Positions 3,176 to 37,580 of a stretch of DNA of 37,678 nt are shown here, piece after piece. A model generated the notes under the pieces. The model saw only the letters and a program-made list of their open reading frames with translations. It was not told the origin of the DNA and ran no database searches. Every line of letters begins with the position of its first letter. Position 1 is the first letter of the stretch. The stretch lies in the IMG/VR virus record IMGVR_UViG_3300042362_000131, positions 1-37,678 of that record; one strand, given 5' to 3'. This stretch comes from a virus. The translations under genes were made by a program, and so were the position numbers.

Positions 3176-3534
3176 ACGAAAAAGAACTTGAGGCTTATGC
3201 CAATCTGGTAAAACGCGTCAATAAACTGGAGCAAGAACTACGATTTAACGAAGAAGATCACACAAGTTTAAGTTGCGAAACTGCTGATCTGCGCGATGAG
3301 AACATTAAATTGCTGCGCGAAAATAACAGGCTAACCCTTGAAAATGAAGTATTGTCGCAAGGCAGACCACAGACAGAACTGGATGCCGCTAAATTGGCTG
3401 TTGAAAATACCGAGCTGCGAACTCAGTTGAGCAAAGAGATAGAAGAATACAAAGAGGCAAGGACAACTTGGCAGTTCCAAAAGCACATCCTAGAAAGTAA
3501 ACTTCAGAGACTGCACAAAGAGAAAACAGAATGA
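3172..3534 (+). CDS. Long coiled-coil protein next to the helicase
   Basis: A 120-residue protein that is almost wholly a coiled coil (for example VKRVNKLEQELRFNEED and ENIKLLRENNRLTLENEVL). It overlaps the previous stop and the helicase start by ATGA junctions. Position right before a DnaB-like helicase raises the possibility of a helicase partner, but no loader motif or ATP-binding site is present. Function is therefore inferred from position only. Confidence 0.7.
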   Translation: MNEKELEAYANLVKRVNKLEQELRFNEEDHTSLSCETADLRDENIKLLRENNRLTLENEVLSQGRPQTELDAAKLAVENTELRTQLSKEIEEYKEARTTWQFQKHILESKLQRLHKEKTE

Positions 3535-4790
3535 ATCACGAACAAGTGTTTATCGGCTCCTGCTTATTGGAGCCTACCCTCATCGACACCGCCGTAGCTC
3601 AGGGGCTTAAGGCCGATGCGTTCACATCGAACGACCGCAAGGCCATCTGGCTCCAGCTATTGGAGAACCGTACCAACTCCCGGCTGACGGATATGCAGTC
3701 CATCTTCCTTGAGATGGGCAACGCTTGCCCAGCCGAGGAACTGCTTGCTTGCGAAGCCTCCGCTCCCACCCAGACTCACGGGAAGAAAGCTCTCAAGGCT
3801 ACGATGGAGGCTGCCATCATCAGCGACCTACGCCCTGCCCTGCGGGATGCGCTGTCGATGATCGACGACAAGGAGAGCTACACGAAGATCAAGGAAGCCA
3901 TCGAAGGTCTGCCCAACCACCTCAAGCCGGAAGAGCGGACAGAGGTGAGCCTTCCCGAGACCGTGGACGAGGCCATATCGTGGATTGCCGGGCAGATTAG
4001 CGGCAACACGGCTAACGAGAAGGTGGTGGTTACAGGTATGCCGCGCTTCGACGATAGTGCCGGGGCTATTGGGATGCATGAGTATGTCATCGTTGGTGCT
4101 CGCACATCTACAGGTAAGTCCTCCTTCATGACCCAGCTTGCCGCGCACAACCTCTACCGTGGTCTAAAGGTGGCCTACTTCACCTTAGAAACCTCGGCCA
4201 AGGCTGTGCTCTTGCAGATGGGTGCTCAGCGTGCGGGGGTCAATCTCCGCCGCCTCTCGATGGAGTTTACGAATAAGCAGGACGCCCTGAAGAAGGAGGT
4301 GGAGAAGCTGCGCAATATGCCCCTGCTGGTGTACGAGCGAGACCTATCGCTTGAACAGATTGAGGCTCGCTGCCGCTTGCTGGCCTCAACGTGGAAGCCC
4401 GATCTCGTTATCATCGACTACCTCGGCTTGATTCGCGTCAACGCAGACGGTGCTTACGAACGCATGACCAAGCTCTCCAAGAGCATGATTCCGCTGAAAA
4501 AGGCACTAGGCTGCACCCTAATCGTCGCCGCCCAACTCAACCGCGGCAACGAACGAGAGGATCGGCCACCTAGCCGCACCGACTTCCGCGACACCGGAAG
4601 TATCGAAGAGGACGCCCACCGTGTGCTGGCCCTGCACCGCCCCAGCAAGGATGACGCGGGACAGATTCAAGGATATGACCGGACGGAGTACCTTCAGGAA
4701 CTCTACCAACTCAAGAACCGCGATGGTAGTCTGGCTCAAACCAGATTGACATTCTTTGCACCACACACCAAGTTTTCCGAGAGGACATAA
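3531..4790 (+). CDS. dnaB: DnaB-like replicative helicase
   Basis: A 419-residue RecA-fold hexameric helicase that would unwind the phage replication fork. Residues 1-105 match the helical DnaB N-terminal domain in outline (MNHEQVFIGSCLLEP, a typical start). The motor shows Walker A GARTSTGKS at 189-197, Walker B DLVIIDYL at 291-298, the sensor segment VAAQLNR around 333-339, and DTGSIEEDAHRV near 354-365, the usual DnaB signature after the sensor. It is somewhat shorter than bacterial DnaB (about 470). No primase domain is fused and no separate primase gene was recognised. Start is an ATGA overlap with the coiled-coil gene. Confidence 0.95.
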   Translation: MNHEQVFIGSCLLEPTLIDTAVAQGLKADAFTSNDRKAIWLQLLENRTNSRLTDMQSIFLEMGNACPAEELLACEASAPTQTHGKKALKATMEAAIISDLRPALRDALSMIDDKESYTKIKEAIEGLPNHLKPEERTEVSLPETVDEAISWIAGQISGNTANEKVVVTGMPRFDDSAGAIGMHEYVIVGARTSTGKSSFMTQLAAHNLYRGLKVAYFTLETSAKAVLLQMGAQRAGVNLRRLSMEFTNKQDALKKEVEKLRNMPLLVYERDLSLEQIEARCRLLASTWKPDLVIIDYLGLIRVNADGAYERMTKLSKSMIPLKKALGCTLIVAAQLNRGNEREDRPPSRTDFRDTGSIEEDAHRVLALHRPSKDDAGQIQGYDRTEYLQELYQLKNRDGSLAQTRLTFFAPHTKFSERT

Positions 4791-4794
4791 ACAC

Positions 4795-4998
4795 ATGAAT
4801 GAAACTGAACTACTAGCCCTGTACCGTGAAACCGCTGCGTTGCGTCAGCAACTGGCCGATGCCGAGATCCGAGAGATGGAACTCAAGAATCGGATCGAGA
4901 ACGCACTTACATACGTCAATATGTGCAGCGGAAGTTTGACTAACCAAGAAATGGATGAAGTGGTTAGTGAACTCACTTGCCTTCTGAACGGCGAATGA
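4795..4998 (+). CDS. 67-residue coiled-coil protein
   Basis: A small protein with a helical N-terminal half (LLALYRETAALRQQLADAEI) and no recognised domain. The ATG at 4795 follows the helicase stop by four bases and is preceded by the A-rich ACATAAACAC, which resembles the leaders of the early genes. An ATG upstream at 4756 would overlap the helicase by 35 bases. Its stop overlaps the next ATG. Confidence 0.65.
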   Translation: MNETELLALYRETAALRQQLADAEIREMELKNRIENALTYVNMCSGSLTNQEMDEVVSELTCLLNGE

Positions 4999-5303
4999 AA
5001 CGCACCCCTCTCAAGCGGGTGAGCAGCAAGCGCAGCAAGGAGCTAAAGGAATACGCCAAGCTCCGTAAAGCCTACCTTGAGGCTCATCCCTACTGCGAGG
5101 TGTATCTGGCCGAGAACGGCCTTAAATACGAAGGAAAGCCCATCGACGCGCCCTTGGCGACGGACATCCATCACCGCCGAGGACGCTGGCATGGCCGACT
5201 AAACGAAACAGAACATTGGCTCGCTGTATGCCGCGAGTCACATGAACGAATCCATTACCATCCCCAATGGGCATACGAACGGGGATATATGCTTCCAAGA
5301 TGA
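4995..5303 (+). CDS. HNH endonuclease-like protein
   Basis: A 102-residue basic protein. The core is DIHHRRGRWHGRLNETEHW, then LAVCRESHERIH, the beta-beta-alpha metal arrangement of HNH nucleases with the first His pair and the closing CxxxH.IH. Only single cysteines are present, so the usual structural zinc is incomplete. This resembles small phage HNH proteins linked to recombination or packaging. The start at 4995 overlaps the previous TGA (ATGA). It overlaps the next ATG in the same way. Nuclease activity is inferred. Confidence 0.75.
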   Translation: MKRTPLKRVSSKRSKELKEYAKLRKAYLEAHPYCEVYLAENGLKYEGKPIDAPLATDIHHRRGRWHGRLNETEHWLAVCRESHERIHYHPQWAYERGYMLPR

Positions 5304-10081: not shown

Positions 10082-11380
10082 TTATCGAGTAGTTGATCGG
10101 AACCCAAGATTGCGACCAAGAAATTTATTGGCAAGAGCTGCATCAGCTTCGGATTCTGGAGCAATTGCTTGATTGGCTTTAGTGTCAACAATATCGCTTC
10201 CACGAAGCCTGAGTAGACGTTCGCGGGCCATACGGATCTTTTCGAGAGACGCTTCTTTATTAAGAGTTGTACGGAGCGCAGCAGCACTATCAGCAACCAT
10301 AAGAGCATCTCTGTCTGTAAACGGACCAAGTGGATTTCCACCACGTTCTGACTGAGCTTTTAGCTGAGCGATTTCGTCAAGAGTAAGCGCAGCTCTAATC
10401 GCAGAAAAAGTAATATCAAGTTCTTCGGTTTTGGGGGTAAAAGCATAGGGAACATAACGTCCTTCTATGTTTCCACCAGCACCAGCCATTACAAGGCTTT
10501 CGGCCTTATCAAGATTTTTAAGTAAAAATTCTAGCTTAATATTTGCGGCTTTAGCTGCCTGCTGCTTTTTTACTTCAGACTCTGATTTCTTTTCTGCTTT
10601 TTCTGCTGCCTCAATAGCAGCCGGGCCACCGGGAGTGGCGCGAACAGTTGTATTCCTTGGATCAGAAGATACATACTCAAAACCAAACTGAGGAGTGGGA
10701 CGCGGATCTTCTTGCGTCTCCAACTTTCGATTCAGCAATCTAGTCTCGGCCTCAGTTTTAAGCCTATTAGCTTCATCAAGTTCAGCCTTACGGCGATCAT
10801 TCTCGGCCTGACGAGCAGCATCAGCTTCTGCTTTACGCTGAGCAGCCGTCATATTCTGACGATTTACGAAATTATTAGAAATAGAAAGGGCTTGGTCAAT
10901 TGGTAGCCCAGCGTTGATTGCAATAGGCAACGGATCAACACCGCTGTCAAAGGCTCCCTGAAGCGACTTAGCAATATCGGCCTGCCGCTTTTGAGCCGCT
11001 TCTTGGGCATTAAGCTGCTCGATGGTCTTATAACCAAAAGCAGCAGCAGCACGCTTATCGCCACCAGCCATATTAACTAGAGCCTGCCTAATAGCATCTT
11101 TCTTCTCGGTCTCAGTAGCGGATTCTGGCACTCGACTATTAATGTAGTCGCTAACGCTTTTCCTCTGCTGAGCTGAAGCAAAGATGTTATTTACAGAGGA
11201 ATCAAGCAGCCTATCTGCTTCTTTATTCTTAAAATAGGATTCAACACCTTGTCCGATACCTTCTGTCAAACCAGCAATCCCACGCCCAATGGCCTGACTG
11301 CCAGCAAGCGAACCTTGAAGGAAAGGCGTGTAATCAATGCGCCCCAGTTCTGGACGAATACCTGTTCCAATGCGTGCCAT
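10082..11380 (-). CDS. Internal virion / ejection protein, 432 residues
   Basis: Starts MARIGTGIRPELGRIDYTPF, followed by a Gly/Ala segment (QGSLAGSQAIGRGIAGLTEGIGQG written across residues 22-46) of the kind seen at the start of phage core proteins. The middle (about residues 185-290) is a strongly charged coiled coil (AEADAARQAENDRRKAELDE). It sits two bases before the 907-residue gene and after the Gln/Ala-rich protein. An internal core or ejection role is inferred from that order. Confidence 0.68.
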   Translation of the reverse strand: MARIGTGIRPELGRIDYTPFLQGSLAGSQAIGRGIAGLTEGIGQGVESYFKNKEADRLLDSSVNNIFASAQQRKSVSDYINSRVPESATETEKKDAIRQALVNMAGGDKRAAAAFGYKTIEQLNAQEAAQKRQADIAKSLQGAFDSGVDPLPIAINAGLPIDQALSISNNFVNRQNMTAAQRKAEADAARQAENDRRKAELDEANRLKTEAETRLLNRKLETQEDPRPTPQFGFEYVSSDPRNTTVRATPGGPAAIEAAEKAEKKSESEVKKQQAAKAANIKLEFLLKNLDKAESLVMAGAGGNIEGRYVPYAFTPKTEELDITFSAIRAALTLDEIAQLKAQSERGGNPLGPFTDRDALMVADSAAALRTTLNKEASLEKIRMARERLLRLRGSDIVDTKANQAIAPESEADAALANKFLGRNLGFRSTTR

Positions 11381-34054: not shown

Positions 34055-34303
34055 ATGACAACTGCAGAAACCTACCTATCGAAGATTCGCCAAGCGGAGG
34101 TTGACGGGAAGGAAGTCTACGTTTGCACTCACTTAAAGGCAACGCGCATAACGCAAGCGGCCTTTGCCAAGTGGCGCAAAGCTGGGCGCGACCTGTTCAA
34201 GCTCTCGAAAGACGGTGCCTTGCTTATGGCTACCGGGAAGAAATACGTTCGCTTGACTTCCGGAGCCGACATTCCCCTTGTTCGGATTATCTACGTTTCT
34301 TAA
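34055..34303 (+). CDS. First early gene, 82-residue unknown protein
   Basis: First gene of the plus arm. The protein is basic, with TRITQAAFAKWRKAGRDLFK and a beta-like end (TGKKYVRLTSGADIPLVRII). No family recognised. Leader bases are A-rich (CAAAAAACAAAACAGAAAGAGAC) but without a strong ribosome binding site. As a first-expressed gene it may target host functions, which is inference from order only. Confidence 0.72.
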   Translation: MTTAETYLSKIRQAEVDGKEVYVCTHLKATRITQAAFAKWRKAGRDLFKLSKDGALLMATGKKYVRLTSGADIPLVRIIYVS

Positions 34304-34320
34304 CGCAAACCATAAACAAA
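34303..34320 (+). repeat. Start-associated leader repeat, copy 1
   Basis: ACGCAAACCATAAACAAA, beginning on the last base of the upstream stop codon and ending seven bases before the ATG at 34328. It is identical to copies at 34546, 34758 and 35099. No Shine-Dalgarno sequence lies between it and the ATG. Confidence 0.92.
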
Positions 34321-34327
34321 TACACAA

Positions 34328-34546
34328 ATGAAAGTTCGCAAGTTAGGTTGCATCACTCAGGTTTCTTTCAGCGCGGCGGACGTTGCCGCCTTTAATGCTC
34401 AATGGCCTTGCTCTTGTCTTCCCGAAAAGCGGGGCTTTGTTGAATTTGAACGCAACGGCGATTTAGTGGGCGCGCCGGATTGGATGGACGGCCCCGAAGG
34501 CTTGGCCTTCGTTTCAGATTGCCAAGACTTTGCAGATAAGAACTAA
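34328..34546 (+). CDS. 72-residue unknown early protein
   Basis: A small protein with three cysteines (GCITQ, PCSCLP) and an acidic C-terminus (FVSDCQDFADKN). No motif was recognised. It is flanked on both sides by copies of the 18-base leader repeat, like a cassette. The stop TAA at 34544-34546 shares its last base with the next copy. Confidence 0.7.
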   Translation: MKVRKLGCITQVSFSAADVAAFNAQWPCSCLPEKRGFVEFERNGDLVGAPDWMDGPEGLAFVSDCQDFADKN

Positions 34547-34563
34547 CGCAAACCATAAACAAA
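34546..34563 (+). repeat. Start-associated leader repeat, copy 2
   Basis: Exact copy of the 18-base element. It ends eight bases before the ATG at 34572. Confidence 0.92.
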
Positions 34564-34571
34564 TATGCACC

Positions 34572-34757
34572 ATGAGAGATTACTACTGCTATAACCATAA
34601 CGGACAATTCGTCCGCGCTTTCGCCACCGCAGAAGAGGGTACGGCATGGATTAATGATCAAGTGCGTCAATGGCGAGAACAAGGGCGGTTCGGGCTTACA
34701 TATCGCTGCTGTTATAACGGGACAACTTCAACGGAAGTAGCGCGTGCAACTTCTTAA
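34572..34757 (+). CDS. 61-residue unknown early protein
   Basis: Begins MRDYYCYNHNGQFVRAFATA and has a Trp/Arg-rich middle (INDQVRQWREQGRFGLTYRC). It looks like a small folded beta-alpha unit. The ATG at 34572 is preferred: an ATG at 34565 is in another frame and closes after nine codons. Unknown function, cassette-like position between two leader repeats. Confidence 0.68.
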   Translation: MRDYYCYNHNGQFVRAFATAEEGTAWINDQVRQWREQGRFGLTYRCCYNGTTSTEVARATS

Positions 34758-34775
34758 ACGCAAACCATAAACAAA
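34758..34775 (+). repeat. Start-associated leader repeat, copy 3
   Basis: Exact 18-base copy, beginning directly after the upstream TAA and ending eight bases before the ATG at 34784. Confidence 0.92.
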
Positions 34776-34783
34776 AACACATC

Positions 34784-35095
34784 ATGACTAAAGAACAAGA
34801 AATTGCTATCATCCGTGAATTCGCCGCCAAGCTCGGGGAGAACAGTTATTTCGGCCCCGTGCTTGCTGAGGCTTTGCCGGAATTGGAGCAAGACATTAAA
34901 AACGATATCACTCCCTGTCTGTCCCTGCGCAACATTAGAGACGAGGCTTTATTTGCCTTGGAAGCGGCGAAACAAGAGCGGGCAACGGCGGAGATTAAGG
35001 CGGAACGTATCGTAACCAGCGCGAGGGAATACAAAGATACGATTTTGGCTTCTGCCAGAAAGTTGCTCATTGAAAAGTCCAAAGAGCTTTACTAA
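34784..35095 (+). CDS. 103-residue coiled-coil early protein
   Basis: A helical protein: an N-terminal helix (MTKEQEIAIIREFAAKLGEN), an acidic segment (LAEALPELEQDIKNDI), and a long coiled coil (FALEAAKQERATAEIKAERI) to the end. No motif is recognised. It is preceded by leader repeat copy 3 and followed by copy 4. Confidence 0.7.
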   Translation: MTKEQEIAIIREFAAKLGENSYFGPVLAEALPELEQDIKNDITPCLSLRNIRDEALFALEAAKQERATAEIKAERIVTSAREYKDTILASARKLLIEKSKELY

Positions 35096-35098
35096 CTA

Positions 35099-35116
35099 AC
35101 GCAAACCATAAACAAA
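35099..35116 (+). repeat. Start-associated leader repeat, copy 4
   Basis: Exact 18-base copy, four bases after the upstream stop. It ends 18 bases before the ATG at 35135; the extra space contains AAAGGAC, the only ribosome-binding-site-like sequence among the four exact copies. Confidence 0.92.
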
Positions 35117-35134
35117 AAGAAAGGACATACACAA

Positions 35135-35449
35135 ATGAAAACCACCGTCAACTTCTACAGCTTCGCGGATGCTTTCCGCCGCATGGATCGCGCAAACCAG
35201 TTCTCGCGGGCTGGACTCTCTGCCCTCTTCGACTATTTGGAAGAGCTTGAACAGGAAACAGGGGACGAGTACGAATTAGACGTTATCGCCCTTTGTTGCG
35301 ACTTCGCGGAATATGACACCGCAGAGGATGCGGCGCGGGAGTACGGATGGACGCCGGAGCATGGGGCGAGTCCCTTGGCGTGGCTACAGGAGCAAACCTC
35401 TGTCATTGAGGTTCACGGCTACCCGCAAGTTATTGTCCAGAGTTTCTAA
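35135..35449 (+). CDS. 104-residue conserved-looking phage/plasmid protein
   Basis: An acidic protein with FADAFRRMDRANQFSRAGLS, then LFDYLEELEQETGDEYELDV and IALCCDFAEYDTAEDAAREY. I recall this arrangement (LFDYLEELE...ELDVIALCCD..EY) from hypothetical proteins spread over phages and mobile elements. Its molecular role is not known to me. Its acidic surface could suggest DNA mimicry, but that is speculation. Confidence 0.78.
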   Translation: MKTTVNFYSFADAFRRMDRANQFSRAGLSALFDYLEELEQETGDEYELDVIALCCDFAEYDTAEDAAREYGWTPEHGASPLAWLQEQTSVIEVHGYPQVIVQSF

Positions 35450-35524
35450 GCCACACTTAACCCAACCCCTTGCCCTGCTTGCCTTAATTGGCGGCGGGGT
35501 TTTGGGGTGCCGGGATTCCCGGTT

Positions 35525-35540
35525 CAACCATAAAAACACA
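35525..35540 (+). promoter_or_regulatory. Degenerate start-associated leader
   Basis: CAACCATAAAAACACA precedes the ATG at 35541 directly. It keeps the ACCATAAA core of the exact repeat but lacks ACGCAA. A small palindrome (CCGGGATTCCCGG, 35510-35522) lies just upstream. Confidence 0.6.
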
Positions 35541-35789
35541 ATGCAAAAAAATATCGTTATCACTCCGCCGTTTGCTCAGTCGTTAATGACTGGGGTTGTT
35601 TACGCGCAATTCACGGGCAACCATTGCACGCTCCACTATTCGGACGGAACAACTGAAACCGCACGCATCACGGACCTGCTCGCGGAGCAGGTCCGGGTTT
35701 ATTATCGCTACCAATCGGAGAACGGTCCAGAGGCCGAAGAGCCTTCATTTTTTGAGGTCGTTTCTCAGGTTCAAGCGGAAAGAGTTTAA
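35541..35789 (+). CDS. 82-residue unknown early protein with internal hairpin
   Basis: Beta-rich (QKNIVITPPFAQSLMTGVVY, GNHCTLHYSDGTTETARI) with an acidic helical end. The ATG at 35541 is chosen over upstream in-frame ATGs that would overlap the preceding gene because it carries the leader element. A perfect 11-base-pair hairpin lies in the coding sequence at 35671-35695. No family recognised. Confidence 0.7.
   Translation: MQKNIVITPPFAQSLMTGVVYAQFTGNHCTLHYSDGTTETARITDLLAEQVRVYYRYQSENGPEAEEPSFFEVVSQVQAERV
35671..35695 (+). repeat. Perfect 11-bp inverted repeat in a coding region
   Basis: CGGACCTGCTC (35671-35681), a GCG loop, and the exact complement GAGCAGGTCCG (35685-35695), followed by GGTTTATT. 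It is GC-rich and would form a very stable hairpin in mRNA. It could slow translation or transcription, or be a protein-binding palindrome. Confidence 0.85.
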
Positions 35790-35802
35790 CCATAGAAACA
35801 CA
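35790..35802 (+). promoter_or_regulatory. Degenerate start-associated leader
   Basis: CCATAGAAACACA lies between the stop TAA at 35787-35789 and the ATG at 35803. With the end of the stop codon it reads AACCATAGAAACACA, a variant of the AACCATAAACAAA half of the repeat. Confidence 0.6.
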
Positions 35803-36150
35803 ATGAAAACAAATTGCACAATATCGGTTAATGGCGTTAAATTTGCGCCTTCAGGTTCAGCTCTCGTTGAGTCTTTATTCAATCCCGAAGGTACGGCATC
35901 GGGCATTTACAAAATAAAGCGCAATGGCGTTTTGTTTTGTAAGCCTAGTGGCGATCCTTTCGCGTTCCTTGTAGCCAATCGGTCGACCTATTGCTATTTT
36001 GTCTCGTGTTCAAAAAAAGAGTATGGGCAGATTCGCTATCAATACTCAACTTGCTCAATAGATGAAAAAAGACTTGGGATTGATTCTTTGTCTTACGGCG
36101 AAAAGAATCGGCTCGCTGAAAGCATTTGGGAAACAGTTTCGACACAATGA
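35803..36150 (+). CDS. 115-residue unknown early protein
   Basis: Begins MKTNCTISVNGVKFAPSGSA and is beta-rich with Cys and Tyr (STYCYFVSCSKKEYGQIRY). There is no recognised domain. The ATG follows the degenerate leader, and the TGA overlaps the start of the lysozyme-like gene (ATGA). Confidence 0.7.
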   Translation: MKTNCTISVNGVKFAPSGSALVESLFNPEGTASGIYKIKRNGVLFCKPSGDPFAFLVANRSTYCYFVSCSKKEYGQIRYQYSTCSIDEKRLGIDSLSYGEKNRLAESIWETVSTQ

Positions 36151-36527
36151 AAAAGACATTCCTTGCCCTGTTGTTAGCCCTGCCCGCCTATTCCGCGCCG
36201 CCTGAATCGTTTTGGCGGGCTTTGCATCACGTTGAAACCTCGGGCCGCCTCGGACCCATTAAAGGCGACAATGGGGCCGCCCTTGGCCCTTTGCAAATCC
36301 ACCGTGCGTACTGGAAAGACTCTGGTGTTCCGGGGACATATTCGCAATGCGCTGATTTAGCTTATTCCCGCCGCGTTGTAACCGCCTATTTGCGCCGTTA
36401 TGCTCGCAACGCATGGGAGCGGGGCGACGCATTTAGCCTAGCCCGCGTGCACAATGGGGGGCCGTCAGGAGCCAATAAACGCGCAACTTTGCGCTACGGT
36501 CAAAAGGTAGTTAATGCAATGAAATAA
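36147..36527 (+). CDS. Secreted i-type-lysozyme-like endolysin
   Basis: A 126-residue protein with a Sec signal (MKKTFLALLLALPAYSA, likely cut after residue 17). The mature part has Glu30 in ALHHVETSG as likely catalytic acid, GDNGAALGPLQIHRAYW at 40-56, and ARVHNGGPSG at 99-108. These are the core blocks of invertebrate-type (destabilase) lysozymes, here without their many cysteines; a related transglycosylase is possible. It would cleave peptidoglycan after export. It sits in the early arm, far from the holin-like genes. The start overlaps the upstream stop. Confidence 0.8.
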   Translation: MKKTFLALLLALPAYSAPPESFWRALHHVETSGRLGPIKGDNGAALGPLQIHRAYWKDSGVPGTYSQCADLAYSRRVVTAYLRRYARNAWERGDAFSLARVHNGGPSGANKRATLRYGQKVVNAMK

Positions 36528-37235: not shown

Positions 37236-37486
37236 ATGGCCTCTGGATTCACTCGGACATCCTTGAACGGCAAGACCTGTCTCACGCCGAGCGGATGGTA
37301 TTAGCTTTCATCGCGTCATTCCCGGAGGGCTACTTCGGGAGTGATGGCTATATCGCACAGTCTTTGCATATGAACAAGAGAACTGTGGAGCGTGTGGTGT
37401 CTTCGCTCTATCGTTCTAATTCCCTAGAAAGAAGGGGAAATTCGCGTTTCTGCGTGTCAAAAGTACGCAAGAACGCGAGCATATGA
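37232..37486 (+). CDS. Winged helix-turn-helix replication-initiator-like protein
   Basis: An 84-residue protein: LSHAERMVLAFIASFPEGYF, then SDGYIAQSLHMNKRTVERVV and SSLYRSNSLERRG. This is the typical winged HTH of replication initiators and regulators, with the recognition helix at NKRTVERVVSSL. It lies directly before the SSB-like gene and the replication block. The last 33 bases are part of the 127-base terminal repeat. It could recognise an origin or control the block; neither is shown. Confidence 0.75.
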   Translation: MNGLWIHSDILERQDLSHAERMVLAFIASFPEGYFGSDGYIAQSLHMNKRTVERVVSSLYRSNSLERRGNSRFCVSKVRKNASI

Positions 37487-37580
37487 TACAGAGATGTAAT
37501 CAGAATAGGGATAGACCACCAAATAGCTTCATTTTTGTCAGCAACCATAACTAAACGCAAATGAATAACATCCTGTCAGT
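37454..37580. repeat. Terminal direct repeat, right copy (127 bp)
   Basis: Identical to bases 1-127. After base 37580 the similarity drops sharply: I count about 24 differences in the next 98 bases. Confidence 0.95.

Follow-up and report, generated by a model that had tools for sequence, protein, structure and literature searches.

The window analysed here is a complete IMG/VR virus record of 37,678 nucleotides (IMGVR_UViG_3300042362_000131). Its early operon contains a run of small genes on the + strand. The run opens with an 82-aa gene (34055-34303) preceded by a different A-rich leader, GGCAAAAAACAAAACAGAAAGAGAC. It continues with a 72-aa gene without a family match (34328-34546), a cassette carrying a 61-aa gene (34564-34757), a 103-aa gene (34784-35095) and a 104-aa gene (35135-35449) assigned to PHROG 9974, of unknown function. 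The 18-mer ACGCAAACCATAAACAAA is found in this run in four exact copies, at 34303-34320, 34546-34563, 34758-34775 and 35099-35116. All are on the + strand and confined to the early operon. As described in the initial annotation, every copy occupies a gap, of 24-39 bases, that separates one stop codon from the following ATG. Copies 1 and 2 precede the 72-aa gene (ATG at 34328) and the 61-aa gene (ATG at 34572), and in both cases the TAA stop of the previous gene shares the first base of the repeat. Copy 3 precedes the 103-aa gene at 34784. Behind copy 4 come AAGAAAGGACATACACAA and then the 104-aa gene at 35135. At up to three mismatches, a mean of 0.06 sites is expected by chance, and none of 100 shuffled sequences gave four. 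The repeated leader is a real, functional-looking feature of the window.

A scan of the window at the same tolerance gave no 18-mer site beyond the four exact copies. The shorter forms reported in the initial annotation are present on the + strand. The degenerate leaders AACCATAAAAACACA (35526-35540) and AACCATAGAAACACA (35788-35802) directly abut the ATG codons at 35541 and 35803, and a half-swapped form, AACCATAACTAAACGCAA (90-107), precedes the SSB-like gene at 108 and occurs a second time at 37543-37560. These forms have the core AACCATA in common. It occurs at 10 sites in the window, of which only those at 10295 and 34593 do not precede a start.

The first ca 120 bases of the window recur at its end, so that the early genes continue, downstream of the early operon, with the SSB-like gene at 108. 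Positions 1-107 and 37454-37560 form an identical junction followed by two SSB-like alleles that diverge soon after the ATG. Both alleles are present in relatives (L024 and L025). Either a strain mixture in the assembly or an allele exchange at the start would account for the two versions. The early operon also encodes a small protein (36147-36527) with a signal-like N-terminus and a Destabilase/lysozyme-like match (3.7e-07), and homologues of this protein occur in several close relatives.

Leader-associated genes and cassette borders

An exact scan of viral contigs identified 10 contigs at 53-55% GC with the repeat before an ATG, as well as 4 GC-rich contigs (L007, L008, L010 and L011) whose sequences are unrelated and which were set aside. 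Extra matches to a looser pattern, ACGCAAACMAYAAACAAA, over all viral contigs were mostly outside the phage family and not at start codons. Relatives were also collected by a terminase search, from which 80 loci were taken out of 462. The initial annotation proposed to look in relatives for the 18-mer with up to three mismatches and to record its distance to the ATG. Among close relatives in IMG/VR, with the window included, the leader was found at this tolerance before 35 genes in 18 contigs, 2-18 bases upstream of the ATG. The products of these genes form 12 families without mutual similarity at E 1e-3. The leader therefore belongs to the junction rather than to a particular gene. One of the families is the ArdC anti-restriction protein (Pfam ArdcN, 4e-35, and a zincin-like peptidase domain). 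The remaining families consist of small proteins; nearly all of these either match no family or have no known function. In L015, an ArdC-type gene with both domains (4335-5192) is itself an exchangeable cassette; for this reason, the early region may be an anti-defence island.

Gene content changes at the leaders. In L015 and L022, the 72-aa gene is followed by the 103-aa gene, and a single leader replaces copy 2, the 61-aa gene and copy 3 of the window. The coding DNA on both sides of the missing gene is 96-97% identical to that of the window. In terms of sequence, this comparison shows that one gene was gained or lost precisely between two leader copies. Moreover, the end of the 103-aa gene and the leader behind it are followed by three different genes, one in the window and L025, one in L015 and one in L036. 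The 103-aa gene itself is internal in L015 and opens the operon in L025 and L036, behind another A-rich leader.

The initial annotation had suggested that the repeat could be a seam for swapping early genes. A strict version of this idea, in which the 18-mer is kept as a short homology for cassette exchange and expression is secondary, appears unlikely to us. The exchanges described above fit with it, as does the number of homology-block edges that fall at leaders (251 of 2060, compared with 20 expected at random positions). However, this strong enrichment is lost when leaders are compared with other early gene starts of the same regions, since homology breaks are about as common there (17 of 22 leaders versus 63 of 94 other starts, p = 0.09). 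In addition, spacers such as AAGAAAGGACA belong to the junction and do not travel with the gene, so that many joints fall at the ATG rather than within the 18-mer. The part of the suggestion that stands is that neighbours switch exactly at the leader. On our best reading, the leader would mark the borders of exchangeable cassettes, and the breakpoint counts do not point to a special recombinogenic role.

Hairpins and hammerheads in the junctions

Junctions are of two types, compact (24-39 bases) or long (ca 64-98 bases). In the long type, the order is stop codon, strong hairpin, second hairpin, A-rich leader and ATG. The window contains a long junction at 35450-35540 (-38.5 kcal/mol for the whole junction, + strand). 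Two hairpins are predicted in its first part (35450-35525), at ca 35465-35508 and ca 35509-35523, and the leader AACCATAAAAACACA follows. In close relatives, the first stem, CAACCC...GGGTTG, stays paired while inner pairs switch between GC, TA, CG and AT, as counted on a hand alignment. The loop of this first hairpin is mostly GNRA or UUCG. Such covariation supports the view that the hairpins are under selection for RNA structure. L083 and L091, whose terminases are 76-78% identical, have the same junction layout with different sequences.

No terminator-like site was called at 35450-35540, and a wider look for intrinsic terminators at the junctions found none at the right place. The hairpin junctions run on into A-rich sequence without a T run. 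The absence of a U run after the hairpin excludes ordinary intrinsic terminators. Integron attC-like sites were also considered for the hairpins, and by eye their core sites and spacing do not fit.

In five relatives, the early operon contains a Hammerhead_II motif (RF02276), with scores of 38.2-39.4 bits for a gathering threshold of 37. The motifs are at 11902-11963 in L005, 6989-7050 in L006, 6867-6928 in L039 and 1281-1342 in L012, all on the - strand, and at 3321-3382 on the + strand in L017. In the three contexts that were read (L005, L006 and L039), the hammerhead is directly 5' of an A-rich leader and a start codon. In L039, it sits at the junction that matches the hairpin pair of the window. 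A hammerhead search of the window found none, and an Rfam search of its early region returned nothing up to E = 1.

These elements raise the question of mRNA processing. In phage T7, RNase III sites cut the early transcript into single-gene messages. Hammerheads of prophages have been proposed to process transcripts, and ribozymes flank ardA (PMC3088659). By analogy, hairpins, hammerheads and leader could together cut the early transcript into single-gene messages, with the processed mRNA carrying the 18-mer in its 5' end region. The hammerheads of the five relatives and the covarying tetraloop hairpins of the long junctions argue for this model. We nonetheless find it quite improbable as an explanation of the repeat, because the compact junctions, which hold all four exact copies of the window, have no hairpin, and the window has no hammerhead. 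The present motifs resemble the published phage hammerheads in that self-cleaving motifs lie between early or accessory genes, one of them anti-restriction. They differ in that, in the present set, only relatives of the window have them, in their position ahead of an A-rich start leader, and in alternating with plain hairpin junctions (PMC3088659).

Conservation of the exact leader sequence

According to the initial annotation, the absence of the leader from relatives carrying the same genes would speak against a function. In close relatives, leader and gene go together: at 73-100% identity, the leader precedes ArdC in 7 of 8 cases. This is no longer true at 62% identity or less, where ArdC genes lack the 18-mer and have another leader instead. 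The exact 18 bases are thus not required across the wider family. Several of these more divergent genes are still preceded by hairpins and by an A-rich leader, to which AAGGAG is added in some cases. Relatives with a 75-79% identical terminase use other leader sequences. A repeated leader resembling the 18-mer was sought in every clade of the family and was not found; distant clades share at most short, mostly A-rich stretches. From the sequences compared, the exact 18-mer is clade-specific, and part of the identity of the copies may reflect recent spread.

The exact sequence could even be without special function, if an ordinary A-rich leader was recently duplicated or copied by gene conversion and the repeats are what remains of this. 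The copies of the window are identical, the orthologous leaders of L015 and L025 show a one-base difference (CATAAAC versus CACAAAC), and more distant relatives use other leaders, as expected from this scenario. However, the genes behind the copies are unrelated, so that whole-gene duplication was not the way in which the leader spread, and near-identical leaders persist in contigs of many metagenomes. We give this explanation a slim chance.

It is very improbable that the repeat is bound by a regulator of phage or host origin (as a stoperator-like site or promoter), or is a small-RNA target, and thereby coordinates the early genes, two other options of the initial annotation for which no positive evidence emerged: its single orientation, exact sequence and restriction to the early operon would suit such a role, but promoter-like sites at leaders are at chance level (2 found, 2.2 expected), relatives deviate from the 18-mer at several positions and no dyad symmetry is seen. 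More generally, no sigma-70-like promoters above chance were detected at the junctions, in a scan that does not cover the promoter type of the likely host.

Start sites, likely host and known systems

Three of the exact copies have no Shine-Dalgarno (SD) sequence, in agreement with the initial annotation, and the fourth has AAAGG ca 15 bases 5' of the ATG. The accompanying statement that the phage elsewhere relies on strong AAGGAGG sites has to be corrected. Only 3 of the 43 other curated starts have such a site, and 9 of 43 have any 4-base SD-like match. The starts behind the four exact copies have a mean unpaired probability of 0.76, versus 0.50 in the 43 other genes of the window (p = 0.00015, n = 4). 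Their A content is 50-65%, versus 33% at other starts of the window.

Searched with the terminase, the genome collection yielded a single cellular relative, carried by a contig of an uncultured Opitutae MAG. By profile search, relatives turned up in 6 of 384 Opitutae genomes. The host is probably a freshwater member of Opitutae (Verrucomicrobiota), with the reservation that the cellular matches may be phage contigs binned with the MAG. SD-like sites were counted in two of these six genomes. Their frequencies, 13% and 14%, are not enriched over the upstream controls (14% and 13%), whereas the same method gives 48% versus 0% in E. coli. Verrucomicrobia such as Akkermansia and strain IMCC26134 have been listed as SD-scarce (PMC10783764). 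Work in Flavobacterium shows that starts without an SD are helped by adenines upstream and by weak structure (PMC6847099).

We consider it about evenly probable, and perhaps slightly better, that the 18-mer forms the core of a portable, SD-independent translation leader for early genes that also marks cassette borders. Among the four options of the initial annotation, an SD-independent translation signal is the one that the sequences support best, with an SD-scarce likely host class, A-rich unfolded starts and 12 unrelated gene families behind the leader. The region before the ATG is A-rich and weakly folded, as expected for such a leader in an SD-scarce host, the host itself being only probable. 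In the mRNA, the A-rich and unfolded leader would allow the ribosomes of this host to start at the next ATG, whatever the gene. The hairpins upstream in longer junctions would separate the leader from the RNA of the preceding gene, and in some relatives a hammerhead before the A-rich leader would cleave the transcript at that point. The leader, often with the preceding TAA stop, would remain in place as genes are gained and lost beside it, and would thereby mark the edge of an exchangeable cassette. With A-rich, unfolded, SD-free starts in a likely SD-scarce host, a portable leader would be a sensible way of making inserted genes translatable. Against this reading, A-richness by itself would not need an exact 18-mer, and the degenerate copies of the window differ in sequence, as do the leaders of relatives with a 75-79% identical terminase. 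For several leader copies, the spacer contains an AAAGG-type site as well; together with the variable distance to the ATG, this indicates that the leader is not always the sole start signal.

T4-type phages reportedly have mobile regulatory cassettes made of a promoter and a stem-loop, described by Arbiol et al. in 2010. The present junctions are similar in placing a stem-loop and a presumed expression signal between small, plastic early genes and in moving with gene exchange. Unlike in those cassettes, no sigma-70-like promoter above chance was detected at the leaders, the signal looks translational and compact junctions lack a stem-loop.

A second comparison, made in the initial annotation, is with the start-associated sequences (SAS) of cluster K mycobacteriophages. 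Their consensus, GGGATAGGAGCCC, has an AGGAG core able to pair with 16S rRNA, and a subset is preceded by an ESAS, a 17-bp imperfect inverted repeat (PMC3203893). The likeness holds for position and architecture. Both are short asymmetric repeats in one orientation, directly before the starts of many unrelated genes and conserved across related phages, and the repeat may take in the stop codon of the gene before it. A subset of the leader sites has two hairpins upstream, a possible counterpart of the ESAS that differs in sequence, number and layout; in some relatives a hammerhead stands there instead. The likeness does not extend to sequence and SD content. ACGCAAACCATAAACAAA is not within two mismatches of GGGATAGGAGCCC and lacks AGGAG; it is A-rich and SD-free, at a variable distance from the ATG and in a probably SD-scarce host class. 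We therefore do not file the leader as an SAS, though it would work like one. The Kozak-like A-rich starts of Bacteroidetes resemble the proposed leader in that adenines upstream and a low degree of structure promote initiation without an SD; those starts reflect a genome-wide base preference, whereas here an exact 18-mer is repeated before exchangeable early genes only (PMC6847099).

As a tentative generalisation, which we regard as possible but doubtful, a family of phages of SD-scarce Verrucomicrobiota may use a modular intergenic RNA, in which a hairpin pair or self-cleaving hammerhead is followed by an A-rich, SD-free leader that stays unfolded, as a universal socket by which any inserted early genes, some of them anti-defence, are isolated and expressed. 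The architecture of hairpins and A-rich leader may be wider than this phage family. For the choice of start codons in bacteria that barely use SD sequences, one leader serving a dozen unrelated genes makes the sequence requirements directly testable. If correct, the portable-leader reading would show how phages make freshly captured small genes, including ArdC, work at once. The leader would then also be a marker for exchangeable, possibly anti-defence, cassettes in uncultured freshwater phages. In two less related phages, L235 and L236, whose ArdC is ca 55% identical, two hairpins and an A-rich stretch precede the ArdC gene together with a strong AAGGAG-type site.
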